This document shows, one piece after another, positions 17,624 to 51,803 of a DNA stretch of 64,000 nt. Where the stretch lies: assembly GCA_015067215.1 (NCBI GenBank), contig SVMW01000005.1, forward strand, positions 1 to 64,000, written 5' to 3'. Under the pieces are notes generated by a model, which saw nothing but the letters and a program-made list of their open reading frames with translations, was not told where the DNA came from and ran no database searches. Made by a program: the position numbers and the translations under genes. This stretch comes from Oscillospiraceae bacterium (lineage in GTDB: Bacteria; Bacillota; Clostridia; Oscillospirales; Ruminococcaceae). How positions within the stretch are numbered: position 1 is the stretch's first letter; every line of letters begins with the position of its first letter.

Positions 17624-17677
17624 ATTGAAATCCTTTCTTTGTAACTTTGTTGACAGGGATGTTGTATTATAAACAGG

Positions 17678-18730: not shown

Positions 18731-18814
18731 AAAAATCTCCGTAATGAAGGATTATTTACAGCAGGATATAAATTTGCTGCTCATAGTGCAGCAGTCATGG
18801 TGCTGAAATGGGTT

Positions 18815-20870: not shown

Positions 20871-20911
20871 TTTTACCTCCCGGAAGTACCTGCTGGAATT
20901 TTTTGAAAGGA

Positions 20912-21949: not shown

Positions 21950-22049
21950 AATAATCCTCTGAAATACATCAAGACAGGGGGCAGACAGAGAATAACAAAT
22001 GCCTGCGCAGCTGAATTGAATGTACTTTTGGTAATAAAACTAATAAAAA

Positions 22050-23654
22050 TTACAGATTGTTGATAAGACCTGTAACACGGCGTCTGCCACCGCGGAGGTC
22101 GTTTTTGATAAGTGTCTTGTGGTAATATTCTCGGCTTTCCTTATCCATTTCTGCAAGCATATTCAGGTTGGAGCGGATAATGCTGTCGGTTGGGTTTAAA
22201 CCAAGGTAGATAAAGCCGTTTTCGTGATTGATAAAGCCGTGGGCTTCTTCGCGCTGGTTTTGTGCCATTACCATACTTGGAATACCAAGCAAAGCAAGTT
22301 CATAGGCTGTTCTGCCGCGGCTTGTAACACCTACATCGCAGGAAGCCATAAGTTTTGGCATATTGCTTACGTCGTAGTAAACAGAGATGTGAGGATAGCT
22401 GTTGTATTCCATAAGCTGTTCCACATTCTGTTTTGCACGGCCCAGAACTACAGTGAAGTTGTATTTTTCGTATTCAGGTGCTTTGATGATATCGAGAATT
22501 CTGTCGGTGTAGTTCTGTGGGTCTGCACCGCCAAAACTGATAAATACATTTTTCACCTGGTCGTTGATTTCAATAGGGTCATACAGCATAAACATTTTTG
22601 CGGCAATGAAATATTTTTCACCGTTGTGGAAATGTTTGCTGGCAGGGTTATCGTTGAAAAGTGCATTGAACACAAGGTCGGCGTGGTATGCACCTTCGCC
22701 GTCATCTTCAAAGTTGACAATCTTTGCATCAGGCATTGCAGCACGCAAAGCTATCATATAGTCTATGGAAGTTGTAAGGATATCGTTGATAAAGATATCA
22801 TACTGTTTTTCCTTAAGGATGGTAAAAAGTTCGCCTATGCCGTTTACAGGGATAAGGTTGTGTGTGGTAGTGCCGAAAATTTCAGGGGAAGTCTGGTTGA
22901 TATCATAGTAGATGTCAGGCTTTGAATAAAATTCGTCACTCAGTTCCAGCGCTCTGTAAACATGGCCTGTTCCGCGTTTGTTGTTGCCGTTAACATAAAA
23001 ACCAATCTTTGTGCGTTTGAGCAGGAATTCGGCTGTTCTCAGGTCCTGAAAAGTGTCGATGTCAACTGCTTCATCTTCGCCGATTTCGAAAACCTCAACC
23101 TTTGCACCTATGCGGCTGTCTTCTTTAAGAGCACGTCTGTTTGTAACAACAAAGGCGCCTGTTTCGAGAAAGTTTGCAGGCAGATACTGACGGTTAAGGC
23201 GTTTTTCGTAGTTAGGCTTAACCTTGCCGTTTTCGTCAAGTCCCCAGGAAAGGTGTGGGGCATTGATGGCGGAAATAACAGTGTCCAGGTCGTTTTTTAT
23301 TGCGTGTTCAATGGCGTTGTCCAGAGTTTCCACCTTTAAAGTTGGGCTGGTTGGCTGCATTGTAACAATGTAATCAAACTCTCTGCCAAGAGAAGCGTCG
23401 TAGATAACACCGTCAAGAGTTGCCTTGCTGTCGCACAGGTGTGCTGCACGGTGATGGACGGTAACACCCATCTGTTCAGCGACAATTTCAACCTGAGGAG
23501 AGTCGGTTGTAACAACGATGTCGGTGATGTACTTTGAATTTTTTGCATTGGCAATAGCATAGGAAATAAGCGGTTTGCCATTGATAAGACGAATGTTTTT
23601 GTTTGGAATACCAACACTGCCTGCACGGGCAGGAATAACGGCTAAAATTTTCAT
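22050..23654 (-). CDS. NeuA-like CMP-nonulosonate cytidylyltransferase fused to a PseG/SpsG-like domain
   Basis: N-terminus MKILAVIPARAGSVGIPNKNIRLINGKPLISYAI; C-terminus GNNKRGTGHVYRALEL, VFISFGGADPQNYTDRIL, DVGVTSRGRTAYELALLGIPSMVMAQN. Confidence 0.88.
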   Translation of the reverse strand: MKILAVIPARAGSVGIPNKNIRLINGKPLISYAIANAKNSKYITDIVVTTDSPQVEIVAEQMGVTVHHRAAHLCDSKATLDGVIYDASLGREFDYIVTMQPTSPTLKVETLDNAIEHAIKNDLDTVISAINAPHLSWGLDENGKVKPNYEKRLNRQYLPANFLETGAFVVTNRRALKEDSRIGAKVEVFEIGEDEAVDIDTFQDLRTAEFLLKRTKIGFYVNGNNKRGTGHVYRALELSDEFYSKPDIYYDINQTSPEIFGTTTHNLIPVNGIGELFTILKEKQYDIFINDILTTSIDYMIALRAAMPDAKIVNFEDDGEGAYHADLVFNALFNDNPASKHFHNGEKYFIAAKMFMLYDPIEINDQVKNVFISFGGADPQNYTDRILDIIKAPEYEKYNFTVVLGRAKQNVEQLMEYNSYPHISVYYDVSNMPKLMASCDVGVTSRGRTAYELALLGIPSMVMAQNQREEAHGFINHENGFIYLGLNPTDSIIRSNLNMLAEMDKESREYYHKTLIKNDLRGGRRRVTGLINNL

Positions 23655-36052: not shown

Positions 36053-36475
36053 TTATATGTCTTTATGAACACCGTAACAGGTGTATATGTATTTTTCCAG
36101 CGCTTTCTGTGCACGGCGGTAAAGGCAGGAGCGGTCGGTATAGGTTTTTCTTGCAAGATTGTTTACTGTGTTGCGCTGACGGGCAACATAAAAACTGATA
36201 AGAATGTCCTTGTCTGCAGCGGTCAGGCTGTTGAGTGCGTTTTCTGTGCATAGGATTCTGAAGGTGACAAGGTTAAATTCCTTCTGCAAAACGGCAAGAC
36301 GGGAATAATGGTCGCTGTTGGCCTGTTCAAAAACTCGGTCAAATATTTCCACTGACTGTACATCCATCTCTGTCAGCATATTAATTTGACGTTTAAGATT
36401 TTCGGCACGGGCCTTTAAATGCGGTAAATTGCGTAAGTCATCTGCAGCCTGTTTTTTATAATCTTCAAATGCCAT
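36053..36475 (-). CDS. Phage ArpU/RinA-like or sigma-region-4-like late regulator
   Basis: MAFEDYKKQAADDLRNLPHLKARAENLKRQI...LTAADKDILISFYVARQRNTVNNLARKTYTDRSCLYRRAQKALEKY, typical HTH C-terminal pattern. Confidence 0.6.
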   Translation of the reverse strand: MAFEDYKKQAADDLRNLPHLKARAENLKRQINMLTEMDVQSVEIFDRVFEQANSDHYSRLAVLQKEFNLVTFRILCTENALNSLTAADKDILISFYVARQRNTVNNLARKTYTDRSCLYRRAQKALEKYIYTCYGVHKDI

Positions 36476-36612
36476 AGGAGCCTCCTTTTTATTGGTCACA
36501 GCCAGTGTGTTGACCTGTGTATTAGGGTATAAAGAGTTTTGGTTGAGAATATTTGCGAACTGTCGGTGTGAGGTGTTTGTTTAGCAAAAGTTTCGTTTAC
36601 GCAATTTATAAT

Positions 36613-36762: not shown

Positions 36763-37362
36763 ATGAATGAAATGATTAAAAAACGAAGACGTGAACTTGA
36801 CATAACCCTTGAAGAAGTAGGGGATTATGTGGGGGTTTCCAAAACAACGGTGCAGCGCTGGGAAAGCGGAAATATTTCCAACATGCGGCGTGACAGGATA
36901 AAAAAGCTCAGCGAAATACTGCAGCTTGACCCTGATGTGCTGATTGGAATAAGCAGCGATAAAGAAAACGGCTTCAGCAAAATACCTGTTCTGGGCAGCG
37001 TGGCGGCTGGCCTGCCTGTTACTGCACAGGAGGATATTCTGGGGTACGAAGAAGTGCCTGCCCAATGGACAAAAAACGACGTGCTGTTTGCATTGAAAAT
37101 AAAAGGTGACAGTATGGAACCAAGAATTGTACAGGATGATGTTGTGGTGGTGCGCCAGCAAAACGATGTGGCAAGCGGTGAAACGGCTGTGGTTATGGTG
37201 GGGGATGAAGCCACCTGCAAAAAGGTTATAAAGCACAGCGAAGGAATTGCACTTGTGGCAAACAACCCGAAATATGAACCTATGTACTTTACACATGCTG
37301 AAACTGAACAGTTGCCTGTAAAAATACTGGGCAAGGTTATTGAACTCAGGGCAAAGTTTTAG
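36763..37362 (+). CDS. CI/LexA-like repressor (HTH-XRE plus S24 peptidase)
   Basis: VSKTTVQRWESGNISNM HTH; GSVAAGLPV cleavage region; IKGDSMEPRI catalytic Ser; ATCKKV catalytic Lys. Confidence 0.93.
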   Translation: MNEMIKKRRRELDITLEEVGDYVGVSKTTVQRWESGNISNMRRDRIKKLSEILQLDPDVLIGISSDKENGFSKIPVLGSVAAGLPVTAQEDILGYEEVPAQWTKNDVLFALKIKGDSMEPRIVQDDVVVVRQQNDVASGETAVVMVGDEATCKKVIKHSEGIALVANNPKYEPMYFTHAETEQLPVKILGKVIELRAKF

Positions 37363-37383
37363 AGTAATCACAAATATATAAAC

Positions 37384-37421
37384 AAGGACACTTGTGGTGT
37401 AAAAACCGCAGGTGTCCTTTT
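37384..37421 (+). terminator. Terminator after the repressor gene
   Basis: AAGGACAC...GTGTCCTT followed by TTGCTTTTG. Confidence 0.65.
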
Positions 37422-37560
37422 GCTTTTGAGGTATACGACGGGGTGCAGCTGCTGCATCAGCTGTGCAACATAACTGCATCATAAATGCGAACTTGTTGCA
37501 ACCCCACTGCAATACTTTTGGTGTTATGCTTTAACCGTACCGAAGAGGAGGAAAACAAGA

Positions 37561-37823
37561 TGAAAACAGCAGACAGAAAAAGCATTGGTTATGTGATGGA
37601 CAAGGCACTGAAGTCGCCGGTTACACAGCAGGTCAGGGATGAGATTGCCTCGGTGCTGGACGTGAACACCGACAGAATGACCGCACGGCAGGCAATTGTG
37701 TATGCACAGATTGCAAAGGCAATCAGGGGTGACAAGGCAGCCTTTGAAGCGGTAAGCAGTGTGGCGGCAGAGGCAACAGCTGCCGACAAAAGTTTTTGTG
37801 TGGAGGTGAAGGTAGTGGAATAA
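37561..37823 (+). CDS. Small phage protein immediately upstream of terL, candidate small terminase or packaging protein
   Basis: MKTADRKSIGYVMDKALKSPVTQQVRDEIASVL...; SD AGAGGAGG; position only supports TerS. Confidence 0.45.
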
Positions 37824-37844
37824 AGAAAAAGGGAGGTATGACAA

Positions 37845-39158
37845 ATACAGATAGAGATAACAAAAAAACAGCAGGAATTTATTGAAAGCACTGCAGATGA
37901 AGTGCTGTTCGGCGGCGCGGCAGGCGGCGGAAAAAGTTATGCACAGCTTATTGATGCCTTTCTGTATGCGGTGAAATATCCTTTTTCAAAACAGCTGATA
38001 CTGCGAAGAACACTGCCTGAACTTGAAAAAAGTTTAATACGTGTGTCACTGGGGCTGTTTGACAGCAGAATTTACAGGTACAATGCCTCAAAGCACACAG
38101 GCACATTTGCCAACGGAAGCATAATTGATTTCGGTTACTGCGACAGGGAAAACGATGTTTTCAGGTATCAGTCTGCGGAATATGATGTTATCCGTTTTGA
38201 CGAACTGACACATTTTACCGAGGATATGTATGTTTATCTTATAAGCCGTATACGAGGGGTAAATGACTATCCCAAGCAGATTAAAAGCTCCACAAATCCG
38301 GGAGGGGTGGGACACAGCTGGGTGAAGGCGAGGTTTATTGATGTTTGCAGCGGCGGTTTTTACAGTGACGAAAACGGAACCCGGCAGTTTATACCTGCAA
38401 AGGTAGGGGACAACAGTTTTCTGATGAAAAATGACAAAGGATACCTCAAAAGGCTTAAACGCCTGGGAGAAAAGGACCGCAGGGCACTTCTGTATGGCGA
38501 CTGGGATATTTTTGACGGACAGTATTTCGGCGAATTCCGCCGCAGCATACATGTGATAAAACCTTTTATAATTCCCGGCCACTGGAAAAGATATTTCACT
38601 ATGGACTACGGGCTGGACATGTTTGCAGGCTATTTTATTGCGGTGGACACCTTTGGCAAGGCGTATGTCTACAGAGAAATATACAAACCCAACCTGATTA
38701 TCAGCAAAGCGGCAAAGGAGATTATTGATGCGTCAGAAAAGGATGTATCGGTTTATTATGCACCGCCTGACCTGTATAACCGCAGGCAGGATACAGGCAA
38801 AAGTGTGGCGGAGATTTTTTCGGAATACGGAATTCTGCTGACCAAAAGTGAGAACAACCGCGTACAGGGATGGTACAACCTTAAGGAGTGGCTTATGCCT
38901 TATGAGGACGAAACCGGCGCCGTCACCGCGAACCTTGTGATTTTTGAAAACTGCACAAATCTTATCAGGACACTGCCTGCTCTGACGTATGACAGCACAA
39001 ATCCGAATGATGTGGCTGTAACCCCGCACGAAATAACCCATGCACCTGATGCACTGCGGTATTTTGTTGCAGGAAGGCCTGCACCTGCGGCTAAAGCTCA
39101 GCTGCAGGAAGACGAGGAAAACTACGACAGACAGCTGGAGAATTTTATTAATTTTTAA
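37845..39158 (+). CDS. terL: Phage terminase large subunit
   Basis: VLFGGAAGGGKSYA Walker A, RFDELTHF Walker B-like, SSTNPGGVGHSWVKARFID; the first canonical start (GTG 37902) is only two codons before Walker A, so the start is placed at AUA 37845. Confidence 0.88.
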   Translation: MQIEITKKQQEFIESTADEVLFGGAAGGGKSYAQLIDAFLYAVKYPFSKQLILRRTLPELEKSLIRVSLGLFDSRIYRYNASKHTGTFANGSIIDFGYCDRENDVFRYQSAEYDVIRFDELTHFTEDMYVYLISRIRGVNDYPKQIKSSTNPGGVGHSWVKARFIDVCSGGFYSDENGTRQFIPAKVGDNSFLMKNDKGYLKRLKRLGEKDRRALLYGDWDIFDGQYFGEFRRSIHVIKPFIIPGHWKRYFTMDYGLDMFAGYFIAVDTFGKAYVYREIYKPNLIISKAAKEIIDASEKDVSVYYAPPDLYNRRQDTGKSVAEIFSEYGILLTKSENNRVQGWYNLKEWLMPYEDETGAVTANLVIFENCTNLIRTLPALTYDSTNPNDVAVTPHEITHAPDALRYFVAGRPAPAAKAQLQEDEENYDRQLENFINF

Positions 39159-39168
39159 AGGAGGAAAC

Positions 39169-39741
39169 ATGCTTTACAGATATCCTAAACAACAGGAAAA
39201 AACAGCGTATGAAACTATTGAAGGAAACAGAAGATATGATAATTATACAGGGGCAGACCTTCCGCCTGTACCGTATATTTATTCAGGGCAGGGCAGCACT
39301 GCGAAGCAGACAGCGGGCTCGTCAGGCAAGGTGAAAGCTGCAGTGAATACGGCAGCACAGCCTTCAGCGGAGGATGCTGCACAGGCAGCAAGACAGCAGA
39401 AGATTGACAGCATTAACACCCTGAAAAGCAGGGAGAAAAAATATCTCGGCAACAGCTATAATGCACAGCGTCTTGAGGCACAGAGCAACAATGACGATGC
39501 CATGAGAAGCCTGTATATCGCATATATGCAGGGAATAAAAAATATGCCACAGCAGACAGCTTTGTGGGGTGCGGGCGGCGAAATTGAAAGCCTTAAAACA
39601 CAGCACCGCCTCAATTATGAAGACAACCGTGCAAAACAGATAAGGGAATATAACGGGATACTGAGCGATATTCAGCAGCGTTATGACCGCGACCTGTGGG
39701 AGCTGGAGCAGAAATATCTGAAACAGCTTCTGAACCTTTAA
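39169..39741 (+). CDS. Phage structural or internal protein, unknown
   Basis: MLYRYPKQQEKTAYETIEGNRRY...; SD AAAGGAGG; between terL and portal. Confidence 0.55.
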   Translation: MLYRYPKQQEKTAYETIEGNRRYDNYTGADLPPVPYIYSGQGSTAKQTAGSSGKVKAAVNTAAQPSAEDAAQAARQQKIDSINTLKSREKKYLGNSYNAQRLEAQSNNDDAMRSLYIAYMQGIKNMPQQTALWGAGGEIESLKTQHRLNYEDNRAKQIREYNGILSDIQQRYDRDLWELEQKYLKQLLNL

Positions 39742-39753
39742 GGAGGTGAGTGT

Positions 39754-39924
39754 ATGGTTTTCTTTGCTGGAATTATAGTCGGCGCAGTAATAGGAGCCGT
39801 GTGCTACCGATATTTTTATACCCTTGAATGCAGCCGCAGTGAAGTTATATGCAACAGTGCAGAAAAAGACAGGGAAATGCACAAACAGCTGGAGAGACTT
39901 ATACGCTACGGCAATGATATGTAA
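39754..39924 (+). CDS. Small phage membrane protein (56 aa)
   Basis: MVFFAGIIVGAVIGAVCYRYFYTLECSRSEVICNSAEKDREMHKQLERLIRYGNDM*; SD AAGGAGG; not in the ORF track (too short). Confidence 0.6.
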   Translation: MVFFAGIIVGAVIGAVCYRYFYTLECSRSEVICNSAEKDREMHKQLERLIRYGNDM

Positions 39925-39933
39925 GGAGGAAAA

Positions 39934-41403
39934 ATGAAAAACAGAAAACCTGACTGCCACAGCATATGGCAGGAATATCAGACAGACCTGGCGTACAAGA
40001 ATTCGCTGGATCTGTTTGAAAAAACAAAACAGCAGCAGAACTTTTTTCTGGGCAGGCAGTGGGAAGGGCTTAATGCTCCTGACCTGGAAAAACCTGTGCT
40101 CAACTTTGTGAAAAGGGTGGTCAACTATCTTATCAGTGTGCTTATGGTGAACGATGTTGCCATATCGCTTAAAGGCAGTTTCAGCGACGATATCACTGTA
40201 AGAGCAGTGGAAAAAGAGGTTGAGCAGATAAACGAAAACACAAAGTTTAAAGCCAAGCTTAAAAATATTATCAAGAACACCGCAATTGACGGTGACAGCG
40301 CAGTTTATGTAAGGTATGACCCTGACAAAAAGGCAGCGGTGAGTGAAATTATCTGCAACACCAATATTGTTTTCGGTGACAGAACCACCAACGAAGTGGA
40401 AAAACAGCCATATATCATTCTGGTAAAGCATATTGCAAGAACAGTGTTTGAAGATATGTACCCTGATACAGATGAAAGAGGAATTTACCATTTCGGCACA
40501 GCAGATGACACTGTTACGGTGCTTATCCGCTTTTACCGCAAAAATGGCACGGTGCATTTTATGCAGACAACTGAACACAATGTGCTGACGGACGAAACTG
40601 ACACAGGACAGAAACTGTACCCTGTTGCTTTTATGAACTGGGAGACAGTGAGGGATTCCTACCACGGCATAGGTGCGGTGGAAACCATTATCCCAAACCA
40701 GATTGCCGTCAACAAACTGTGGGCAATGGCGCTGTTGTATCAGAAGAACAATGCATTCCCGAAAGTGTTTATTGACAAGACAAAGCTGGATAAGTGGAAC
40801 TCTTCTCCCGGTGCGGTTATGGGGGTTATCGGCAACCCGAACGAGGTGGTTGCAACCAGCTTCAAGGCAAATGATATGTCGGCACAGCTGATGGGAATTG
40901 TGGAAAAAACTATAAGTTATACAAAGGATTTCATGGGAGCAAATGACGCCGCCCTGGGCAATGTAAACCCTACAAATACATCTGCGATTGTGGCACTGCA
41001 GAAAACCGCAGTTGCACCGCTGGAACTTCAGCGTATGTCGCTGTATCAGTTTGTGGAGGATTATGCCCGCATTGTGTATGACATTATTCGCACCCATTAC
41101 GGCATAAGAAAAACTGTAATTGATGATGAGGCGATTTATGTGGACTACCGCAATATAAACGATGATGCAACGCTGACAGTGAATATAGGGCCTTCGGAAT
41201 ACTGGAGTGAATCGGCACAGATACAGACACTGGACAACCTGTTTACAAAGGGCATTATTGACGACGCGGTGGTTTACCTTGAGAATCTGCCGGGCAGAGT
41301 GCTGCCAAACAAAAACAAGATTATTTCAGAAATCAAAGCGGCAAGATATCAGCTTGCGGGAAGAGATTTTTCGGAGGAGGTGACGGAGTATGAAACTTTG
41401 TAG
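39934..41403 (+). CDS. Phage portal protein
   Basis: 489 aa, QNFFLGRQWEGLNAPDLEKPVLNFVKRVVNYLISVLM; SYTKDFMGANDAALGNVNPTNTSAIVALQ; position after terL. Confidence 0.85.
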   Translation: MKNRKPDCHSIWQEYQTDLAYKNSLDLFEKTKQQQNFFLGRQWEGLNAPDLEKPVLNFVKRVVNYLISVLMVNDVAISLKGSFSDDITVRAVEKEVEQINENTKFKAKLKNIIKNTAIDGDSAVYVRYDPDKKAAVSEIICNTNIVFGDRTTNEVEKQPYIILVKHIARTVFEDMYPDTDERGIYHFGTADDTVTVLIRFYRKNGTVHFMQTTEHNVLTDETDTGQKLYPVAFMNWETVRDSYHGIGAVETIIPNQIAVNKLWAMALLYQKNNAFPKVFIDKTKLDKWNSSPGAVMGVIGNPNEVVATSFKANDMSAQLMGIVEKTISYTKDFMGANDAALGNVNPTNTSAIVALQKTAVAPLELQRMSLYQFVEDYARIVYDIIRTHYGIRKTVIDDEAIYVDYRNINDDATLTVNIGPSEYWSESAQIQTLDNLFTKGIIDDAVVYLENLPGRVLPNKNKIISEIKAARYQLAGRDFSEEVTEYETL

Positions 41404-41581
41404 CTGTTCGGAACGGCCTCTTGGCATTGTTGACAGCAGGGTGGTTATGAAGGAAAACAAACCTTATCAGCTGCTGAGATTTGGATGCACTAACAAAAAG
41501 TGTGCCAAATATCACAATATTGTTGCAGAAAAGTATGTGAATCTGCTTGATAACACCGATACTTTTACGCTGGAAATTTAA
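41390..41581 (+). CDS. Small cysteine-rich (putative zinc-binding) phage protein
   Basis: MKLCSCSERPLGIVDSR...GCTNKKCAKYHN, two Cys pairs; overlaps the portal 3' end. Confidence 0.55.
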   Translation: MKLCSCSERPLGIVDSRVVMKENKPYQLLRFGCTNKKCAKYHNIVAEKYVNLLDNTDTFTLEI

Positions 41582-41618
41582 GACAAAAAATACATTTTAA
41601 ACTGAATAAATATGCAGG

Positions 41619-41650
41619 TTTTGCCCGTTTTGAAGGGCAAAGCATTTTTT
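41619..41650 (+). terminator. Terminator-like hairpin inside the late operon
   Basis: TTTGCCC-GTTTTGAA-GGGCAAA-GCA-TTTTTT. Confidence 0.6.
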
Positions 41651-41681
41651 GCACCATTTTTGGTGGGAAAGGAAATTTTTT

Positions 41682-42521
41682 ATGATAGAAAATACCATTT
41701 CTATAGATAACAGCAGCGACACTGAAGCAGAAAAAGTAAATGCATTATTGTTGCAGCACAACAAAGAAACTGCACAGCAGGACATAGGTGAAAACGAAGA
41801 AAGCGCAGTTGAAAAGGACTGCACAGACAACGGAAAAACACTGCCTGCCGGGCAGGAACCCGCAGAAGACGAACAGGAAAAACCATCCGAGGAAACTGTG
41901 GAACTTACGCTGTACGGAGAAAAGGTACAGCTGGCAAAAAGCCAGGCACTTGCAGCTGCCCAGAAGGGCATGGCTTTTGAACATATCAAAGGTCAGCTTT
42001 CGGCTGCAAAAAATGATGTAAGACTTAAAACGCTGGAGAATATTGCCGCGATGAAAGGGCAGACCATAGCTGCTTTTATCGGTGATTTGCAGCACAGGGC
42101 AATGGCGGATGACATTGCTGCAAAATACGGCGGCATTGAAAATGCCCCTACACAGGTGCTGAGTGAAGCGGTGAGAACACTGGAGCAGAGCCGGATTTCC
42201 CTTGAACAAAGGGAAGCACAGGCAAGACAGCACCATGTAAATCTTCAGCTTATGGAATTTCTGGAAAAAAACCCGGGTGTAAAAGAAATTCCGCAGGAGG
42301 TTATGCAGCTGGCAGAAAAAGGTGAAAATATTGCCCTTGCATACAGCCGTTTCAATGAAAACAGACTGGCGAAGGAACTGAGTGAAGCTAAAAGGGAGCT
42401 GGAAATGATTAAAAGCGAAGAAAAGGCAAAACGCAGCAGCACGCCGACAGCTATGAACTCAGGTGCCGCAAACGAAAGCAGAGAAAACGAATTTTTAAAA
42501 CTTATGAAAAGCACATGGTAA
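41682..42521 (+). CDS. Phage scaffold-like protein
   Basis: Charged, coiled-coil-rich protein directly upstream of the capsid gene; ATG at 41682. Confidence 0.55.
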   Translation: MIENTISIDNSSDTEAEKVNALLLQHNKETAQQDIGENEESAVEKDCTDNGKTLPAGQEPAEDEQEKPSEETVELTLYGEKVQLAKSQALAAAQKGMAFEHIKGQLSAAKNDVRLKTLENIAAMKGQTIAAFIGDLQHRAMADDIAAKYGGIENAPTQVLSEAVRTLEQSRISLEQREAQARQHHVNLQLMEFLEKNPGVKEIPQEVMQLAEKGENIALAYSRFNENRLAKELSEAKRELEMIKSEEKAKRSSTPTAMNSGAANESRENEFLKLMKSTW

Positions 42522-42585
42522 AAAATGTGCAGAAAAACGTTGTTCCGTTTACATACAACGAAAAAAGAAAAGGAGAATTTGAAAT

Positions 42586-43635
42586 ATGTCAGAAACATAT
42601 AACATTAAATTTGATAAGGACCTCAGGGAAGGTTATCTCACAACCAGCCTTGTTGCTCCTCACCTTACAAACGAATACAGCTTTACAGGTGCAAAAACGG
42701 TAAAAATTTCCGCCCCTGTAACAGTGCCTATGAACGACTATGTGCGCAATGGCGCAAACCGTTACGGTGAACCTGTTGAACTTAAGGATGCTGTGCAGGA
42801 GATGACACTCACACAGGATAAAAGCTTTGCACTTACAATTGACAAAGGCAACAGCAGCGACAAAAACGACACAGAAAGCTTTGCAAAGAAAATGCTTGGC
42901 CTTCAGCTGGCAGAACGCGCTATTCCGGAATTTGACCGTTATGCCCTTGAAAAACTCAGCCACAAGGCAGGCAAAATTGCAGGCAACAGCGAAAAACTGA
43001 CAAAAGCCAATATTGTGGACAGAATTACAGACGGCACGGTTTACCTTGACGATGCAGAGGTTGCGCAGAATTCCCGCACATTGTTTGTCAATGCGGCAGG
43101 CTATAAATTGCTTAAACTTGCAGAAGAATTTACAAATATCGACCGTGTGGCAGAAAAATCTCTCACAAAAGGCGTGGTTGGCAAGTTTGACAATATGACG
43201 GTTGTAAAGGTGCCTAAAGGCCGCTGGCCACAGGGCGTAAACTTTATTATTGTGCAGAAAAACGCCGCAACAGCACCTACAAACATTCACGATGCAAAGG
43301 TGCACAAGGACCCTCCGGGCATCAGCGGCAACCTGCTTGAAGGCCGTAACTATTACGACTGTTTTGTAATTGCATCCCGCGCAAACGGTGTTTATGCGGA
43401 AATTGACACATCTGAAGCGGAAATCTGTGCAGCACCTGAAATTTCTGCTGCAGGTGCAATCACAAGTGCAACAGATAATGCACAGTTTAAATATACACTT
43501 GACGGCAGCGACCCGAGATATTCCACAACAGCAATTCAGGGCCAGCCTGAAAACGTGGCAGCAGGTACAGTTATCCGTGCCTATGCTTACAAAAGCGGTA
43601 TGTTTGATTCTGCTGTAAGTGAAAAGGCAATCTGA
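42586..43635 (+). CDS. Major capsid protein with C-terminal chitobiase-like Ig domain
   Basis: Abundant-protein style codon use, position after scaffold; FALTIDKGNSSDKND, NIVDRITDGTVYLDDAEV; C-terminal FKYTLDGSDPRYSTTA...GTVIRAYAYKSGMFDSAVSEKAI. Confidence 0.75.
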   Translation: MSETYNIKFDKDLREGYLTTSLVAPHLTNEYSFTGAKTVKISAPVTVPMNDYVRNGANRYGEPVELKDAVQEMTLTQDKSFALTIDKGNSSDKNDTESFAKKMLGLQLAERAIPEFDRYALEKLSHKAGKIAGNSEKLTKANIVDRITDGTVYLDDAEVAQNSRTLFVNAAGYKLLKLAEEFTNIDRVAEKSLTKGVVGKFDNMTVVKVPKGRWPQGVNFIIVQKNAATAPTNIHDAKVHKDPPGISGNLLEGRNYYDCFVIASRANGVYAEIDTSEAEICAAPEISAAGAITSATDNAQFKYTLDGSDPRYSTTAIQGQPENVAAGTVIRAYAYKSGMFDSAVSEKAI

Positions 43636-43649
43636 TAGTTAATCCAGAC

Positions 43650-43685
43650 AAAAATCCGCTGCAACCAATGCGGCGGATTTTTAAA
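43650..43685 (+). terminator. Terminator after the capsid gene
   Basis: AAAAATCCGC-loop-GCGGATTTTT, 10-bp perfect arms. Confidence 0.8.
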
Positions 43686-43701
43686 AAAGGAGGGAGTTTA
43701 T

Positions 43702-44061
43702 TTGACGGCAAAAGAAATTTACGAAAACGCGCTGGCACTCAGCCTGTCCCATATTGATGAGGAAGACGACCTGAGCTTTTTTGCAGTCAGACTTTTCAAC
43801 ATTATGCTGGCGGAACTGTTTGAAAACAACAACAGTCTGAGGATAAAAAAAGGTGAAAAACCACTGGTTCAGCCTGCAAAAATTGCATCGCTGGAGGAAG
43901 AAGTGAATTACGAAATACAGCTTTATGCACCTATGAGTTACGCTCTTGCATCAAAGCTGCTGCAGGCACAGGAAGAAACCAATCTTGCAGCAATTTACAA
44001 CAACCAGTATGTAACACTGCTCAGCATGGTTACACCTGCAGTGGAAATGGAGGTTGTGTAG
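43702..44061 (+). CDS. Head-tail connector/adaptor-like phage protein
   Basis: MTAKEIYENALALSLSHIDEEDDLSFFAVRLFNIMLAELFE...; TTG start preceded by GGAGGGAG. Confidence 0.5.
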   Translation: MTAKEIYENALALSLSHIDEEDDLSFFAVRLFNIMLAELFENNNSLRIKKGEKPLVQPAKIASLEEEVNYEIQLYAPMSYALASKLLQAQEETNLAAIYNNQYVTLLSMVTPAVEMEVV

Positions 44062-45924
44062 ATGGCAAGTCTCAACAAACTGATAATATCCACCTATGAA
44101 AATCTTAAAGGAGTGGATTTTTCCACACCTGAATCTCTGGTGGATAAAAACCGTTCTCCTTACTGCCTTAATCTTATGCCGGATGCAAGCGGAAACCCTG
44201 TGAAACGTCCGGGATGGAAGATGGCTTACAAATACAGCGAAAAAATCAACGGATTGTGGAGATGTACAGTTAACGGACAGAAGTACACCATCTGTCACTG
44301 TGCAGACAAAATCTATCATGTGGAAAAAAACAATCTGATGATAAGGGGGGTGGCTGACAGCAGAAGTTGTGGGTTTTATGCATTTGACGGGGAAAAGGAC
44401 CTGTTTTATATCCTTACATCGTCGGAATATCTGTGCTTTGACGGAAAATCCGTCACAAAGGTCAGCGACAATGCATATGTACCGCTGATTTCCATTGCAA
44501 AGTCGCCTGAAGGCGGCGGGGAAAGCTATGAAAGCATTAACTTTCTTACATCACGCAGGAGAGAAAACTTTATAGGCACCGACACGGCACTGGTATATCA
44601 GCTGGGTGCTGATGAAATAGAAGAGGTAATAAAAATTGAGGTGCTGCAGGCTGATGCAAGCAGAAAAACTCTGGAGGCAGATGTTGATTATACAGTGGAT
44701 AATGCACTGGGCAGAATCACCTTTGTTTCGGCACATCCTGCAGTTATCACAGGGCAGGACAACATTTTTGTAACCTATTCAAAACCTGTAGAGGGATACA
44801 GGGAAAAAATTGAAGGCTGTACTGTATGTACAATGTATGGCCTTGGGGGTGAAAACAGGGTGTTTATGAGCGGCAATCCGCTTTGTCCGCAGAAAGACTT
44901 CTGGAGTGATGTGTACAACCCGTTTTATTTCCCGGATCTTAACTATTCGGTTATAGGCAGCGGACAGACTGCCATTATGGGATATCTAAAACTGGGGGAT
45001 CAGCTGGGCATTGTAAAGGAAGGCAACGGACAGGATATTTCGCTGTATCTGCGCAGTGCATCGCTGGACGATGAGGGCAAAGCGGTTTTTACCGTACAGG
45101 GCGGCATAAGCGGCACAGGGGCAATATCGAAAAACTGTTTTGCACTTATAAATGATGAACCGCTGTATCTTTCGTCTACGGGAGTAATGGGGGTTGTAAA
45201 CAACACAATTACCTCTCAGCGTGTGGTGGTCAACCGTTCAGGGCAGATTGATGCAAGACTGCTTGCTGAGGAGAACCTGAGTGACGCGACAGGCTGTGTA
45301 TGGAAGGATTTTTACATAATTGCAGTCAACGGAAACTGTTATGTGCTGGATTCCCGCCAGATGGTTACACCGAAAGACGGAGACAGAAACTCCGGTTATG
45401 AGGCGTATTTCTGGAACAATGTGCCGGCAACATGTTTTGAGGTGGACAGGGATACCTTGTGGTTCGGCACTGCAGACGGACGCATATGCTTTTTCAAGGA
45501 TGAAGTTCTGGGCAGTGAGTGTTATTCCGATGACGGGCAGCCAATACACGCTGTGTGGAAAACACCTGTTGAAGACGAGGGCAGAATTGACCGTTTCAAA
45601 ACTTTGCAGAGAAAGGGCTGTCTTGTTACGCTGAGACCTTTTGCGGCGTCCAGCTGCAGTGTGTATATGAGCGTTGACGGCGGGGCAAAAAAACATGTGC
45701 AGAGCAAAACCCTGGATATTACGCCTATGTTTTCCAACGTGGATTTTGAAAGACTTACCTTTAACAACAATGCCAACCCGCAGGAAATATATTTTTATAC
45801 AAAAATGAAAAGGTATAAACGCATTCAGCTGATATTTGAAAACAATGTGGCAGGAGAAGGCTTTGGTATACAGAAAATCACCAAGCTTTACAAACTTGAA
45901 AACTACAGCAAAAACAGGAGGTAA
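44062..45924 (+). CDS. Phage tail nozzle/stopper-like structural protein (podovirus type)
   Basis: 620 aa, SRSPYCLNLMPDASGNPVKRPGWK-type N-terminus, beta-rich; follows the connector. Confidence 0.5.
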   Translation: MASLNKLIISTYENLKGVDFSTPESLVDKNRSPYCLNLMPDASGNPVKRPGWKMAYKYSEKINGLWRCTVNGQKYTICHCADKIYHVEKNNLMIRGVADSRSCGFYAFDGEKDLFYILTSSEYLCFDGKSVTKVSDNAYVPLISIAKSPEGGGESYESINFLTSRRRENFIGTDTALVYQLGADEIEEVIKIEVLQADASRKTLEADVDYTVDNALGRITFVSAHPAVITGQDNIFVTYSKPVEGYREKIEGCTVCTMYGLGGENRVFMSGNPLCPQKDFWSDVYNPFYFPDLNYSVIGSGQTAIMGYLKLGDQLGIVKEGNGQDISLYLRSASLDDEGKAVFTVQGGISGTGAISKNCFALINDEPLYLSSTGVMGVVNNTITSQRVVVNRSGQIDARLLAEENLSDATGCVWKDFYIIAVNGNCYVLDSRQMVTPKDGDRNSGYEAYFWNNVPATCFEVDRDTLWFGTADGRICFFKDEVLGSECYSDDGQPIHAVWKTPVEDEGRIDRFKTLQRKGCLVTLRPFAASSCSVYMSVDGGAKKHVQSKTLDITPMFSNVDFERLTFNNNANPQEIYFYTKMKRYKRIQLIFENNVAGEGFGIQKITKLYKLENYSKNRR

Positions 45925-45927
45925 ATT

Positions 45928-46296
45928 ATGAAAATAACAGATGTTGAAATTGAAGCCCGCAATGTTAAAAGTGCACCTGACAAGCTTGCGGCAGAAGGTG
46001 AAATTTCCACAAGGGATATTAAACATATTTTTGATAATCTGCCTGAGTACATTGCAGAAAAACACAACGAACTGGTGAATTATCTGCTTAAAAACTACTA
46101 TGTCAAAAGTCAGGTAGAGGAGGTTGTGGACAAAAAGGCAGATGCTTTCAGCAAAGGTACAATGATAAAGGACGATTATGACACCAATGACAACGGCAGT
46201 GTGGACAACGCCGATAAGGTAAACGGTTTCTGGTTCAGTTTTACCGATGCTCTTGGCAACCCTACCTCTGAACCATATATTCACTGGTACGAATAA
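45928..46296 (+). CDS. Phage tail-associated protein with an EF-hand-like loop
   Basis: DYDTNDNGSVDNADKVNGF motif. Confidence 0.45.
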   Translation: MKITDVEIEARNVKSAPDKLAAEGEISTRDIKHIFDNLPEYIAEKHNELVNYLLKNYYVKSQVEEVVDKKADAFSKGTMIKDDYDTNDNGSVDNADKVNGFWFSFTDALGNPTSEPYIHWYE

Positions 46297-46313
46297 TGTA
46301 AAGAGGTGATTAT

Positions 46314-46493
46314 ATGGCAGCGGTACATAAAGCAATGCCTTTGGGTGCGGTTACAACAGGGGAAGGCAGCTGCGGCTGTGTAACTGTTGACGTGGTGGAA
46401 GAAAACAACCTGAGCCCTGTTCAGTCAGGGGCGGTGTATGCCCACGTTGCCGCACAGGTAGGCAATATTGAAATATTACTTGAAACGATATAA
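46314..46493 (+). CDS. Small phage tail protein (59 aa)
   Basis: MAAVHKAMPLGAVTTGEGSCGCVTVDVVEENNLSPVQSGAVYAHVAAQVGNIEILLETI*; SD AAGAGGTGA; not in the ORF track. Confidence 0.5.
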   Translation: MAAVHKAMPLGAVTTGEGSCGCVTVDVVEENNLSPVQSGAVYAHVAAQVGNIEILLETI

Positions 46494-46506
46494 AGGAGAA
46501 GGATAA

Positions 46507-47748
46507 ATGAGTGTATCAACACAGATAGAACGCCTGCAGGCGGACAGAAACACCATCAGAACCAAACTGATTGAACTTGGGCTTGTGCAGACGGGCGCCA
46601 ACCTGACTGCCTGTGCTGCAGCTATTGAAGGCGTGGTTAAACGTGGTGCTGTTGACGTTGAAATAAAAGAAGGTACAAGCTACACCATCCCTGCGGGGTA
46701 CCATAACGGCAGCGGTGTTGTAAAAGCAATAACCGATACTGCAGGCGAAGCGGAAAAATATAAAACACAGGCAAAAGGCCCGATTACACCAACCAAAAAG
46801 CAGCAAAGTATTACACCTGACGAAGGATATTATGCATTAAGTGCAGTTACCGTTGATGCAATCCCTGCAGAATATCAGGATGTATCCAGTGTTACTGCCA
46901 CAAAGGATGATGTGCTTGTAGGGAAAATTTTTGTAGACAGCCTTGGCAATATCATCACAGGTGAAATGTCAAACAATGGTGCAGCGGGAAAAACACTTGA
47001 TGTGACTACAATTTCCTACACCATTCCAAAAGGTTATCACAGCGGCACGGGCAAGGTTAACATTGTACTTGAGGAAAAAACTGTGGTGCCTAAAAAAACG
47101 GTGCAGACGATTACGCCGGCTGACGGCAAGGTTTTAAGCAAGGTGACGGTGAGTGCAATCCCTGATGAATACATCACCACCAATGATGCGGATGCGGTGG
47201 CGGCAGATATTCTTGCAGGCAAGACGGCATATGTGAATGGTGTGAAGGTAACCGGTGAAATGCTAAACAATGGCGCAGTTAACGAAAAGATAAGCAACCC
47301 TGGTTCATCACAGTTGCTTAATGGCGTAACATTTTCATACGCAATTCCAAAAGGCTACCATGACGGCAATGGTAAAGTTGAGGTTGTGGCGGAAACAGCA
47401 AGAATCACACCTGTAAAAGACCCTGACGGAAACAGCACAGTGTTGTTTCCAACAACTACTAATGGAGTAGGTGCCTTCTTTGACAAGGTAGTAGTAGAGT
47501 CTATCCCGCCTGAATACATCACCACCGATGATGCCGATGCAGTGGCAGCAAACCTGCTTAAAGACAAAACAGCCTATGTGGACGGCGTAAAGGTGACAGG
47601 CAGTATGCCGAACAACGGCAAGGTAACAGCAGCCATTGAAGGCCTTACAGCTGCCACATCAAGCTACACTATTCCTGCAGGTTATCACAACGGCAGCGGC
47701 ACAGTAAGCCTTACAGGTGATATTGAAGAAGCACTTGCGGCAATTTAA
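46507..47748 (+). CDS. Phage tail fibre protein with repeated domains
   Basis: Repeats of SYTIPxGYHxGxGxV and (A)DAVAAxILxGKTAYVxGVKVTGxMxNNG. Confidence 0.75.
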   Translation: MSVSTQIERLQADRNTIRTKLIELGLVQTGANLTACAAAIEGVVKRGAVDVEIKEGTSYTIPAGYHNGSGVVKAITDTAGEAEKYKTQAKGPITPTKKQQSITPDEGYYALSAVTVDAIPAEYQDVSSVTATKDDVLVGKIFVDSLGNIITGEMSNNGAAGKTLDVTTISYTIPKGYHSGTGKVNIVLEEKTVVPKKTVQTITPADGKVLSKVTVSAIPDEYITTNDADAVAADILAGKTAYVNGVKVTGEMLNNGAVNEKISNPGSSQLLNGVTFSYAIPKGYHDGNGKVEVVAETARITPVKDPDGNSTVLFPTTTNGVGAFFDKVVVESIPPEYITTDDADAVAANLLKDKTAYVDGVKVTGSMPNNGKVTAAIEGLTAATSSYTIPAGYHNGSGTVSLTGDIEEALAAI

Positions 47749-47760
47749 GGCGGTGATGCT

Positions 47761-50118
47761 ATGAGTATTCAGAGCGAAATCAACAGAATAAACAGCAATA
47801 TTGCCAGCACCTATTCCGCTTTGGAACAGCAGGGTGCGGCAATGCCTGCTGCCCTTAACAGCGATAACCTTGCGGCAACGGTGGCAACGCTCAGCAACGG
47901 CACAAAGGTTTATTATGTGGAAGGCACAGGCACAACAGCAGGTGTGTGGACAGGCTCAATTGACGGGCTGACAGCTTACTATGACGGCTTGGCTATCCTG
48001 TATAAAATCAACATTGCAGGGGCAACTGCAACAACACTTAATATCAATGGTTTGGGTGCAATCACCTGTCGCAGAAATGCAGGTGCTTTGACAACCCATG
48101 TTCCTGTAAACAGTGTAATTCTGCTGACATATACAACCATTGACGGAACAGGTTATTTCACCTGGGCAGACTATGACAGCAACACAAAGGTAACACAGGC
48201 TGCAGCAATCACAACAGCAGGTGAATATCCTGTAATGCTTGGTTACAGCACAGCCACAACAGCAGTTACCAATACACTGAAAAAGACAACAACATTAAAG
48301 TACAACCCAAGCACAAAGGTGCTGACAGCACCGACTGTTAAGGGTAACCTGACAGGCAATGCCGACACAGCAACAAAAGCCTCACAGGATGCAAATGGCA
48401 ACAATATTGCCGCAACCTATGCCACAAAAGCAGAAGTTGCAGAAAAAGCTGTGCCTGACTATGTTGTAACCGAAGCGGAAAGACTTGCCGCCCTTGTGCA
48501 GACAAGACAGGGTGAAAACACAATGACAATGATGTTCGGCAGTGATGTTCACCTGTCACTGACCAATGCAAACTCTGCACAGATGGTGGAAAGCGTAACC
48601 CATGCAGGACAGGCTATGGATATCCTTAAAAAGTCGGTTCATATTGACTTTTCGGCAATACTTGGCGACCTGATATGGGACGGGGACACAAACGAAGTGG
48701 GCACACAGACCATGAGAAAGGTACACAGCCTGCTGGGTGAACACGATTTCTGGACAGAGGGCAACCACGACTGTCAGTACAACGGTGAAACTATAACAAG
48801 ACAGCAGAAGTTTGCAAACACAGGCAAATGGAACGAAGGTGCGGTATATGACGGCGCAAACAGACTTGGCGGTTACTGCTACAGGGACTACAGCGCATAT
48901 AAAGTGAGGGTGATATGCCTTAACACCTGTGAGGATACAACAGGCGATATGACCATAAGCACGGCACAGCTTAACTGGCTTGCAGCGGCAATCAGCACAA
49001 TGGCTGACGGCTGGAAATGTATTCTTCTGTCACATCATCCCCTTAACTGGCTGGGTAACAGCACGGCTGTTATGAACACAGTTGCCACATATAAGGATAA
49101 AGTTCTGTGCAATATTCACGGGCACGCTCACTGTTACCTTGTGGCAGAACTTGGCACAACAGGGGTAAAGCGTATAACAATACCAAATATCAACTTTTAC
49201 CGCAACAACGAGTACGGCACAAATGGTGCAACGGAATACGGCGGTGTTGAAAATGGTGAAAGCACCACATACAACAAAACAGCAGACAGTGCAAATGACA
49301 CAGCTTTCTGTGTGCTTACCCTTGACCTTGACAATATGATTATCTACGCTGACCGCTACGGAGCAGGGTATGACAGGGTGATAAGTCTCGAAGCAGAACT
49401 TGAAACATTTACTGTTACAAATTCTCTCACAAAAACAAGCACCAGCAACAGTGCAACAACTGCAGTTGAAGGTTCGGGTTATACAGCTACACTTACTGCA
49501 GACAGCGGTTATGAATTAAGCACAGTTAAGGTAACAATGGGCGGTACAGATGTAACAAGCAGTGTATACAGCAATGGGAAAATCACTATTTCTTCCGTTA
49601 CAGGCGATATCGTTATTACAGCGGTATCTACCGAAGCAGTTGTGACACCAACATATACAAACCTTGTACCGACAAGCCTTGCTTCAGGCGGAGGCAGCGT
49701 TTACAACAGTACAGGTTATAAAAACGGTTACCGTCTGAACTCCAGTGGTACAGAAACGGCGCTGACTGGTGCAGCTTGTACAGGGTTTATACCATATAAC
49801 GACCAGGTTATCCGACTGTTCGGTTCAAAATCCAAATATCTGAGCGACACAGGCTGGTATATTCAGTGTTACGACAGTTCATTTGCACATAGTGGCGGTG
49901 TGGCAGGTTCGGGTATATCAGCTGACACCACATTTGCTGTGCACCCGATATTAAAAACAGCAGACGGCAGCAATGCGTATATGTGGACTATCGACCCGAA
50001 CAGTATTAGCAACGCAACAATCAAGAACTATCTGCTCAATGCTGTATATATCCGTATATCAGCACCAAGCTGTGCAGGCAGCGATATGATTGTTACATTT
50101 GACGAACCGATAGAATAA
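47761..50118 (+). CDS. Phage tail protein with embedded calcineurin-like metallophosphoesterase domain
   Basis: FGSDVH, GDLIWDGD, EGNHD, LLSHHPL, IHGHAH motifs in order; fibre-like N-terminus. Confidence 0.85.
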   Translation: MSIQSEINRINSNIASTYSALEQQGAAMPAALNSDNLAATVATLSNGTKVYYVEGTGTTAGVWTGSIDGLTAYYDGLAILYKINIAGATATTLNINGLGAITCRRNAGALTTHVPVNSVILLTYTTIDGTGYFTWADYDSNTKVTQAAAITTAGEYPVMLGYSTATTAVTNTLKKTTTLKYNPSTKVLTAPTVKGNLTGNADTATKASQDANGNNIAATYATKAEVAEKAVPDYVVTEAERLAALVQTRQGENTMTMMFGSDVHLSLTNANSAQMVESVTHAGQAMDILKKSVHIDFSAILGDLIWDGDTNEVGTQTMRKVHSLLGEHDFWTEGNHDCQYNGETITRQQKFANTGKWNEGAVYDGANRLGGYCYRDYSAYKVRVICLNTCEDTTGDMTISTAQLNWLAAAISTMADGWKCILLSHHPLNWLGNSTAVMNTVATYKDKVLCNIHGHAHCYLVAELGTTGVKRITIPNINFYRNNEYGTNGATEYGGVENGESTTYNKTADSANDTAFCVLTLDLDNMIIYADRYGAGYDRVISLEAELETFTVTNSLTKTSTSNSATTAVEGSGYTATLTADSGYELSTVKVTMGGTDVTSSVYSNGKITISSVTGDIVITAVSTEAVVTPTYTNLVPTSLASGGGSVYNSTGYKNGYRLNSSGTETALTGAACTGFIPYNDQVIRLFGSKSKYLSDTGWYIQCYDSSFAHSGGVAGSGISADTTFAVHPILKTADGSNAYMWTIDPNSISNATIKNYLLNAVYIRISAPSCAGSDMIVTFDEPIE

Positions 50119-50129
50119 GGAGGGATATT

Positions 50130-50543
50130 ATGGCAGAACATAAAGCAAGCAGACTGGGTATGGACCTTAAAACACAGCTTAAAATAAATGACGCATACAC
50201 AAGAGGTATGCGTCTTGTATGGGAAAACCCGTTTCCTGAACAACAGTTCAGCGCACTGACAGTTGGATGTGACACCACAGAAAACGACCTTGTTGCGGTA
50301 AAATATAAAACAGCATCCACCTATACAGGCGGGAATGCATATTATGTATTCGGCAGAACAGGGGATAAGCTGGAAATGACAGCCTTTGCAGCAAAGCTGA
50401 GAAAAAGAACGGTTGAATTTGCAATAGGCGGTGTTATTTTTTCGAACGGCGGTTACTCATCATTTGGCAGTGAAGCCATAACAGCGGACAACAACATGAT
50501 ATGTCCTCTTGCGGTATATGTTTACAAAGATTTTTTCAAGTAA
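50130..50543 (+). CDS. Phage protein of unknown function
   Basis: 137 aa, MAEHKASRLGMDLKTQLKINDAYTRGM..., between fibre and endolysin. Confidence 0.5.
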   Translation: MAEHKASRLGMDLKTQLKINDAYTRGMRLVWENPFPEQQFSALTVGCDTTENDLVAVKYKTASTYTGGNAYYVFGRTGDKLEMTAFAAKLRKRTVEFAIGGVIFSNGGYSSFGSEAITADNNMICPLAVYVYKDFFK

Positions 50544-50555
50544 TGGGGAGGTACA

Positions 50556-51293
50556 ATGAATCTGAAGATTATTGATATATCCCGATATCAGCCGTCGGTT
50601 GATTATGCTCAGACGGTGCAGGACTGTGACGGGGTAATACTCCGCGCGGGACTTACATACTGGGGTGCACAGAATATGGGCAGGGACTCTTGCTTTGAAA
50701 AACATTATGAAGGTTTCAAGACTGTGGGATGTCCTGTAGGCGCATATTATTATTCTGCAGCAGACACTGTGCAGATGGCGGAAAAGGAAGCGGAATATTT
50801 TATATCTCTGCTTAAAGGAAAACAGTTTGAACTGCCTGTTTACTTTGATGTGGAAAACAACCAGCGTCAGGGCAGCCTGACAAAGGAACAGCTTACACAG
50901 ATTGTGGACGCATTCTGTTCGAGGATGGAAAAGGCAGGGTATTTTGTGGGGATATATGCTTCAACCAGCTGGCTTAAAAACAAAATGGACAGCGGTTATC
51001 TTGGCAAAAAATACACCTTGTGGAAAGCGGACTATCGTCTGCTGTATGACAAAAAAATCCCATGTCATATGCATCAGTACACATCATCAGGGGCGGTAAA
51101 AGGGATAAGCGGAAATGTGGATATTTCCCATTGTTATATGGATTTTGCATCGGTAATAACCGCAAAGGGATTTAATGGCTTTACGGGACAGACCGGGCTT
51201 AAAACTTTCACCGTCAAAGCACCGCAGAAGGAAATTTCCGCGTTTGTTGCAAAGGCAGAGGAAATGGAAATTAAAAATTATACAGTGACATAA
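50556..51293 (+). CDS. GH25 muramidase endolysin
   Basis: LKIIDISRYQPSVDYAQT, GAYYYSAADT, LPVYFDVENN, AGYFVGIYAS motifs; adjacent to holin. Confidence 0.9.
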   Translation: MNLKIIDISRYQPSVDYAQTVQDCDGVILRAGLTYWGAQNMGRDSCFEKHYEGFKTVGCPVGAYYYSAADTVQMAEKEAEYFISLLKGKQFELPVYFDVENNQRQGSLTKEQLTQIVDAFCSRMEKAGYFVGIYASTSWLKNKMDSGYLGKKYTLWKADYRLLYDKKIPCHMHQYTSSGAVKGISGNVDISHCYMDFASVITAKGFNGFTGQTGLKTFTVKAPQKEISAFVAKAEEMEIKNYTVT

Positions 51294-51302
51294 ATTTGCA
51301 AC

Positions 51303-51330
51303 AGGGAGGCAAAGCCTGCCTCCCTTCTTT
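51303..51330 (+). terminator. Terminator-like hairpin between endolysin and holin
   Basis: AGGGAGGCA-AAGCC-TGCCTCCCT-TCTTT. Confidence 0.6.
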
Positions 51331-51347
51331 AAAAGAAAGGAGGTACA

Positions 51348-51803
51348 ATGAAAGATATTGACAGAATAAAAATTGTGTTTATCACAGTGTTCACAGCGGT
51401 AAACACCGCCCTGGGCAGCCTTGCAGTACCTTTTTATCTGCTTGTTGTGACAAATATTATCGACTACGGTACAGGAATATGTGCATCTGTGTGCATGGGA
51501 GAAAAAATTTCCAGCGCAAAAGGGTTTAAGGGCATTGCAAAAAAAGTGTGCATGTGGCTGCTGGTACTTGTAGGTGCAATTGTGGATTATATGATGCTTG
51601 AGCTGTCTCATACACTGCATATTGAAACAGGCTTCGGCAGTCTGGTGGCTGTTGCGGTGGTGTTCTGGCTGCTTGCCAACGAACTTATTTCCATTCTGGA
51701 AAACATAGGGGACATAGGAGTACCGTTGCCTGCATTTTTAATGAAAATTCTGGAGATGATAAAAGAAAAAACCGAATATACTGCGGAAAATGAGCAGGAA
51801 TGA
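51348..51803 (+). CDS. Phage holin (toxin secretion/phage lysis holin family)
   Basis: VTNIIDYGTGICASVCMGEKISSAKGFKGIAKKVCMWLLVLVGAIVDYMM. Confidence 0.85.
   Translation: MKDIDRIKIVFITVFTAVNTALGSLAVPFYLLVVTNIIDYGTGICASVCMGEKISSAKGFKGIAKKVCMWLLVLVGAIVDYMMLELSHTLHIETGFGSLVAVAVVFWLLANELISILENIGDIGVPLPAFLMKILEMIKEKTEYTAENEQE

Follow-up and report, generated by a model that had tools for sequence, protein, structure and literature searches.

A podovirus-type cluster and its metallophosphoesterase fibre

The window analysed here, a 64,000-nucleotide stretch from an Oscillospiraceae bacterium, contains a podovirus-type gene cluster of 15 kb (36.7-51.8 kb), with its genes on the forward strand. It begins with a CI/LexA-like repressor (36763..37362; HTH_3 and Peptidase_S24), followed by a candidate small terminase of 112 aa (37485..37823), assigned by position and with no recognised DNA-binding domain, and by the large terminase TerL (37842..39158, start uncertain; Terminase_3, 1.2e-10; Terminase_6N, 2.2e-8). 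The head genes comprise a P22-like portal protein (39934..41403; PF16510, 8.3e-13), a probable scaffold (41679..42521) located between portal and capsid and conserved in the type A loci described below, the major capsid protein (MCP; 42586..43635; phrog_422, 1.1e-45; CHB_HEX_C_1, 1.5e-7), and a probable head-tail adaptor (43702..44061), which was assigned by position and is conserved. Beyond the part aligned in phage relatives, the capsid protein carries an additional C-terminal chitobiase/Fn3-associated-like domain (aa 292-349), possibly a surface decoration. Downstream lie a virion structural protein that is probably the tail nozzle (44062..45924; phrog_3287, 2.1e-38), a short conserved fibre-anchor-like protein (45928..46296), and a repeat-rich fibre protein of 413 aa (46507..47748; phrog_13589, 4.6e-42; repeats). 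The gene of central interest (47761..50118) is followed by a 137-aa protein with no assigned function (50130..50543), a GH25 endolysin (50556..51293; Glyco_hydro_25, 3.1e-26), and a holin (51348..51803; Phage_holin_4_1, 1.3e-33). At the edge of the element, a small conserved ORF on the reverse strand (36053..36499) had no Pfam match and was suggested to encode an ArpU-like late regulator. We saw no integrase, replication gene, or tail tube and sheath genes in the cluster, and found no att-like direct repeats at the ends of the element.

The ORF at 47761-50118 (+) starts with ATG, runs without interruption for 785 aa, and encodes a metallophosphoesterase (MPE) tail protein. The MPE domain occupies aa 227-545 (48439..49395), as supported by Pfam, residue invariance, and an AF2 model. 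The PF00149 Metallophos profile matched aa 261-459 (E = 7.9e-9) with 36.7 bits against a curated cut-off of 21.5 bits, so the match lies well beyond chance. A complete calcineurin-type MPE with all five motifs had been read from the DNA in the preliminary description, and we found the residues at the expected places, namely D262/H264 (DVH), D303 (GDLIWDGD), N335/H336/D337 (GNHD), H425 (SHHP), and H455/H457 (GHAH), which make up the complete metal-site pattern D-x-H / G-D / G-N-H-D/E / H / G-H-x-H. The eight residues that serve as metal ligands or catalytic histidine (D262, H264, D303, N335, H336, H425, H455, and H457) did not vary in any of the 14 sequences aligned, the most distant of them at about 20-30% identity. 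The N-terminal region (aa 1-226; 47761..48438) yielded no confident family in any library (best match Hia_Tpr_ring, 0.0079, below the cut-off); what stands of its earlier designation as fibre-like is the fibre-type position of the gene between the nozzle gene and the lysin. Similarly, the Ig-like C-terminal modules described before reduce to a single Ig-like repeat (about aa 551-632; 49411..49656), which recurs in large proteins of other genus members, and the remainder is not a row of Ig domains but a different beta-rich end module of 150 aa (YTNLVPTS...GFIPY...EPIE; 49657..50115), common to other phage tail proteins and probably the glycan-binding part.

Structure prediction, the check proposed at the outset, gave a good MPE model, with a pLDDT of 83 for aa 227-785 (AlphaFold) and a pLDDT of 89.4 and pTM of 0.91 for the MPE domain alone (AF2). 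The model adopts an alpha/beta sandwich that Foldseek matched with probability 1.00 to PAP, SMPDL3A, and GpdQ. The nearest folds were SMPDL3A/acid sphingomyelinase (SMPDL3A TMq 0.57), purple acid phosphatase, and the glycerophosphodiesterase GpdQ (2dxl, TMt 0.65), well above Mre11-type nucleases; Mre11 and 5'-nucleotidases appeared among the weaker matches. SMPDL3A also ranked first in a profile search of PDB sequences (1.7e-8). Assembly of the metal site was judged by residue conservation together with the predicted fold, on which the site probably assembles. The MPE thus resembles GpdQ/SMPDL3A-type phosphodiesterases in metal-ligand pattern and nearest fold, but shares 12-16% identity with them and differs in its extra insertions and its fusion to fibre modules.

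Relatives among phage tail proteins

We found a profile match to phrog_7158, a family recorded as of unknown function (E = 2e-10, aa 187-432). As the match begins at profile position 159 and the N-terminal baseplate anchor (positions 1-158) is not covered, the window protein is a relative of the family's MPE half rather than a full-length member. The family includes gpB of Lactobacillus phage phig1e, which combines BppU_N and Metallophos and is recorded as a minor capsid protein, as well as the tail protein of Latilactobacillus phage TMW 1.1365 P2 and gp06 of Enterococcus phage IME199. In this family the MPE is carried on a tail or virion protein encoded among tail genes, as in the window, where the gene is placed in a virion gene cluster between the nozzle/fibre genes and the lysin and holin. 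However, phig1e gpB is anchored by BppU_N, whereas the window protein has a different N-terminus plus Ig-like and beta-rich C-terminal modules.

Identity of the MPE to annotated phages is low (25-33%). A tblastn search against 50,697 phages returned a single C-terminal match for the whole protein and weak MPE matches, and the plasmid matches were enterococcal metallophosphoesterases (26% identity). Direct and two-row searches of IMG/VR returned no relatives; the IMG/VR relatives came from a four-row alignment search. We obtained 15 more loci with relatives (12 from IMG/VR and 3 genome loci), mostly phage tail genes, and in most of these the MPE is joined to varying N-terminal tail modules, often with the same C-terminal modules. 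The relatives occupy phage tail-tip clusters. The protein of one relative includes a BppU_N baseplate domain, and at another locus (L057) the MPE gene comes after, in order, the genes for Dit, a tail protein, and a protein judged BppU-like by eye. The fusion of an MPE to a tail protein is a known and recurrent pairing, and there is good support for a tail-tip position. The location in a tail or fibre protein that had been proposed for the window gene is therefore well backed by gene context, both here and in the relatives, and the protein is very probably exposed on the particle. In one phage tail cluster, two metallophosphoesterase genes form a tandem pair (L055:6627-9452).

In BFVD, the search also matched a protein of Enterococcus phage Idefix whose entry is named 'Virion protein with calcineurin-like phosphoesterase domain'. 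Adsorption of Idefix requires epaX, which has been hypothesised to decorate the teichoic-acid chain of the enterococcal polysaccharide EPA (review, PMC8327497). The text of the Idefix paper does not mention the phosphoesterase domain, and no assay of a phrog_7158-type tail MPE was found in the searched literature. The publications examined on phage metallophosphatases and metallophosphoesterases concern metabolic enzymes, not tails. The GDPD fold, a TIM barrel, is unrelated to the MPE fold. GDPD (PF03009) is the tail phosphodiesterase treated in the literature examined, and the job proposed for GDPD tail depolymerases of enterococcal and other phages is a similar one, namely cutting wall phosphodiester polymers from the tail (PMC10194240).

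Distribution and inheritance of the element in the genus

We compared the element of the window (36763-51803) with the loci L033-L048 and L131-L141. The MCP, TerL, and portal genes were each present in all 16 genus genomes, nearly always in single copy, and the MCP was found in about 50 of the 294 genomes of the rest of the family. Fifteen genomes carry either of two inherited forms, here called type A (n = 6; the window genome G000, G004, G006, G010, G012, and G014) and type B (n = 9). Type A is compact, adjoins the same glycosyltransferase genes in five of the six genomes, and has PemK, M18, and ProC neighbours where the contig reaches; a common chromosomal site was found in G000, G004, G010, G012, and G014. 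In type B, TerL, a capsid-adaptor-nozzle-fibre module, and often the portal lie at separate sites amid host genes (leuS, rsfS), and these flanking genes recur between species. Each type forms one clade in the capsid genes (support 100/99 or better). The two are separate clades with poorly resolved relations, which counts against assuming one domestication event. In the type B genome G013 (L137, G013:C28, 4441-9495), about 2 kb separates TerL from orthologues of the glycosyltransferase genes flanking type A, a hint of an ancestral site shared by both types.

Among the closest pairs, the dN/dS of the element genes ranged from 0.04 to 0.16 (0.02-0.09 for LeuS). Sequence identity was correlated with LeuS identity for MCP, TerL, and portal (Spearman 0.80, 0.90, and 0.86, respectively), with the reservation that genome pairs are not independent, so the p-values of this correlation are not to be taken literally. 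Prophage-like relatives with integrase-like or replication-type genes were detected in G002 (L048/L069/L070, G002:C53) and at G015:C30 (L047/L076); the integrase-like gene belongs to the latter, and G015 also has the dispersed form. The element family thus also exists as apparently real phages, and the phage family from which it derives has apparently kept its mobility. The copy in G004 (L037, G004:C19) is damaged: a deletion fuses half of the portal to the capsid gene, the scaffold is gone, and most of the nozzle has been lost as well. At this locus PemK is preceded by 5 kb of unrelated sequence.

The fibre slot between nozzle and lysin varies by genome. G012 has a collagen-like protein of 786 aa there, G004 and G006 have small proteins, and G002 has long adhesin-like proteins. 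In the window the slot is filled by the MPE fibre, which was found in no other of the 16 genus genomes. Receptor proteins with such turnover usually track changes of the host surface.

Substrate, function, and a second MPE copy

The preliminary description had suggested cleavage of a teichoic-acid-like or phosphoglycan wall polymer, and had drawn attention to a surface-glycan ABC export locus in the same window. That locus is real, and besides its ABC exporter it encodes NeuB, a cytidylyltransferase, and numerous enzymes of the GT2 and GT1 families; its row of NeuB, cytidylyltransferase, and GT2 genes (16586-23654, -) probably makes an exported nonulosonic-acid-containing glycan. No phosphate-transferring enzyme was found among the locus genes scanned, so the locus by itself does not support a phosphodiester polymer. 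Canonical teichoic acid and phosphocholine pathways were tested in the host and their genes were not found: PF04464 (TagB/TagF-type) and LicD (PF04991) each went undetected in the host genome (83% complete) and were present in 1 of 16 genus genomes. This near absence weakens the teichoic-acid reading, and in its classical sense that substrate was not borne out. Elsewhere in its genome, however, the host encodes a protein of 604 aa (L176:1243-3057, G000:C24) that has hydrophobic segments at the N-terminus together with a sulfatase-fold domain, and whose top PDB match is the phosphoglycerol transferase GacH (2.6e-19; LtaS, 5e-7). Judged by this sequence likeness, a phosphodiester substrate is plausible, and our best guess is glycerol-phosphate decorations on a surface glycan. 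We consider the evidence about evenly balanced on whether the MPE is a phosphodiesterase acting on surface glycan; if it is, a definite class of substrates could be put to the test for phrog_7158 and its relatives.

Phage-type terminase, portal, and capsid genes were found here without integration or replication genes and with vertical inheritance and purifying selection, as seen in the presence in all 16 genomes, the dN/dS values, and the LeuS correlation. The ordinary phage first assumed as carrier does not fit a cluster that is vertically inherited and has neither integration nor replication genes, and is unlikely overall. With terminase, portal, and capsid kept in a vertically inherited element, a gene transfer agent (GTA) is the reading that fits best. 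We hold with good confidence that the element is domesticated, and lean, with less assurance, towards a GTA-type function; overall, a GTA-like element is likely, as is the tail role of the fibre, and an enzymatic role of the MPE is plausible. The product of the ORF would then be a receptor-contacting fibre or appendage on a short-tailed phage-type particle, on which the MPE would hydrolyse a phosphodiester of the target cell's surface glycan, at best guess in glycerol-phosphate decorations, and the C-terminal beta-rich module would grip the glycan. The MPE fibre would be one variable cassette in the receptor slot of a compact 15-kb particle-making cluster that, inherited vertically by the host genus, may package host DNA and free its particles by lysis. 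We infer that particles form and carry host DNA. Taken as a whole, a phosphodiesterase fibre in the receptor slot of a vertically inherited GTA-like cluster seems to us about as probable as its converse. Against it stand the MPE fibre in a single genome, the two non-tail occurrences of this MPE described below, the damaged copy in G004, the prophage-like relatives in G002 and at G015:C30, and the low dN/dS, which live phages normally show too. A further step, that a vertically inherited GTA recognises its own kind through an enzymatic MPE fibre that removes glycerol-phosphate or other phosphodiester groups from the surface glycan, its receptor specificity co-evolving with the host glycan coat, is speculative; it is drawn from the turnover of the slot between species and the glycosyltransferase neighbours in five of six type A genomes, and we regard it as rather unlikely.

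We take the G+C content of the window (about 43%) and the genome size of 1.8 Mb to be unlike those of Faecalibacterium. The FpGTA of that genus is a podovirus-type GTA with 40-nm particles that carry host DNA fragments of about 9 kb (Borodovich et al. 2026, PMC12946183). Its inventory is shared with the window element, including TerL, portal, scaffold, capsid, fibre/RBP, holin, and endolysin along with a small terminase in which no DNA-binding domain is obvious, and it likewise lacks replication genes and occurs in all examined genomes of one genus (PMC12946183). This likeness is one of gene inventory, with FpGTA taken from its description and the window element known from its genes alone. In contrast to FpGTA, the window element forms one 15-kb cluster with a repressor, and in sister species of the host the element is distributed differently, across two to three loci. 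If the GTA reading is true, this would be a second gut-bacterial genus with a podovirus-type GTA, months after the first was described, and would show how such an element can fragment and disperse through the chromosome. On that reading, moreover, an enzyme-armed, fast-changing receptor protein may decide gene-exchange partners.

The kept repressor and lysis genes, the prophage-like relatives in G002 and at G015:C30 (the latter with its integrase-like gene), and the damaged G004 copy would also suit an ordinary or recently defective podovirus prophage that carries the MPE on its receptor-binding protein by chance, with genus-wide presence reflecting frequent infection by one phage family. We consider this improbable, though to be taken seriously, given that integrase, replication gene, and flanking direct repeats were not found, that the genes are essentially single copy in 16 of 16 genomes and share a common site in five type A genomes, that the single-copy genes of type B are scattered beside leuS, rsfS, and other housekeeping genes, and that they co-diverge with LeuS. 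The MPE could also be catalytically idle or minor and act as a binding scaffold only, since phage fibres often retain enzyme folds for binding; the invariance of all eight ligand and catalytic residues, even among distant sequences, makes this somewhat less probable still. That the MPE acts on nucleotides or nucleic acid as an Mre11- or 5'-nucleotidase-like enzyme, perhaps while DNA is being delivered, is highly improbable: the superfamily is the same and there are weaker fold matches to these enzymes, but SMPDL3/ASM, GpdQ, and PAP outrank Mre11 by both fold and profile, and the MPE is fused to fibre and Ig-like modules rather than to an injected protein. Finally, the particle might be a capsid or killing device that the host has domesticated, on the model proposed for PBSX; the MPE fibre would then determine the range of targets and nothing more, and no DNA would be usefully delivered. 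A variable fibre on a conserved core is indeed typical of tailocin-like weapons as well, and the FpGTA authors leave such a role open for FpGTA (PMC12946183). TerL, portal, and capsid are nevertheless under purifying selection, needless for a tail-only weapon, and tail tube or sheath genes were not seen, so we find this alternative very doubtful.

Beyond the cluster, the genome has one more copy of the MPE domain, with 63% identity, on contig C11 (L008:13511-19825, -). It lies outside phage clusters, immediately 3' of the TGA that ends the gene for a 1783-aa surface repeat protein and in frame with that gene, an arrangement that may reflect a former fusion, read-through, or an assembly effect. 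Its position behind a host surface protein suggests that the MPE domain is exchanged between proteins of phage type and those of the host surface. Together with the MPE of L011/L061, which is a stand-alone gene, the C11 copy indicates that enzymes of this MPE subfamily are not confined to tails.
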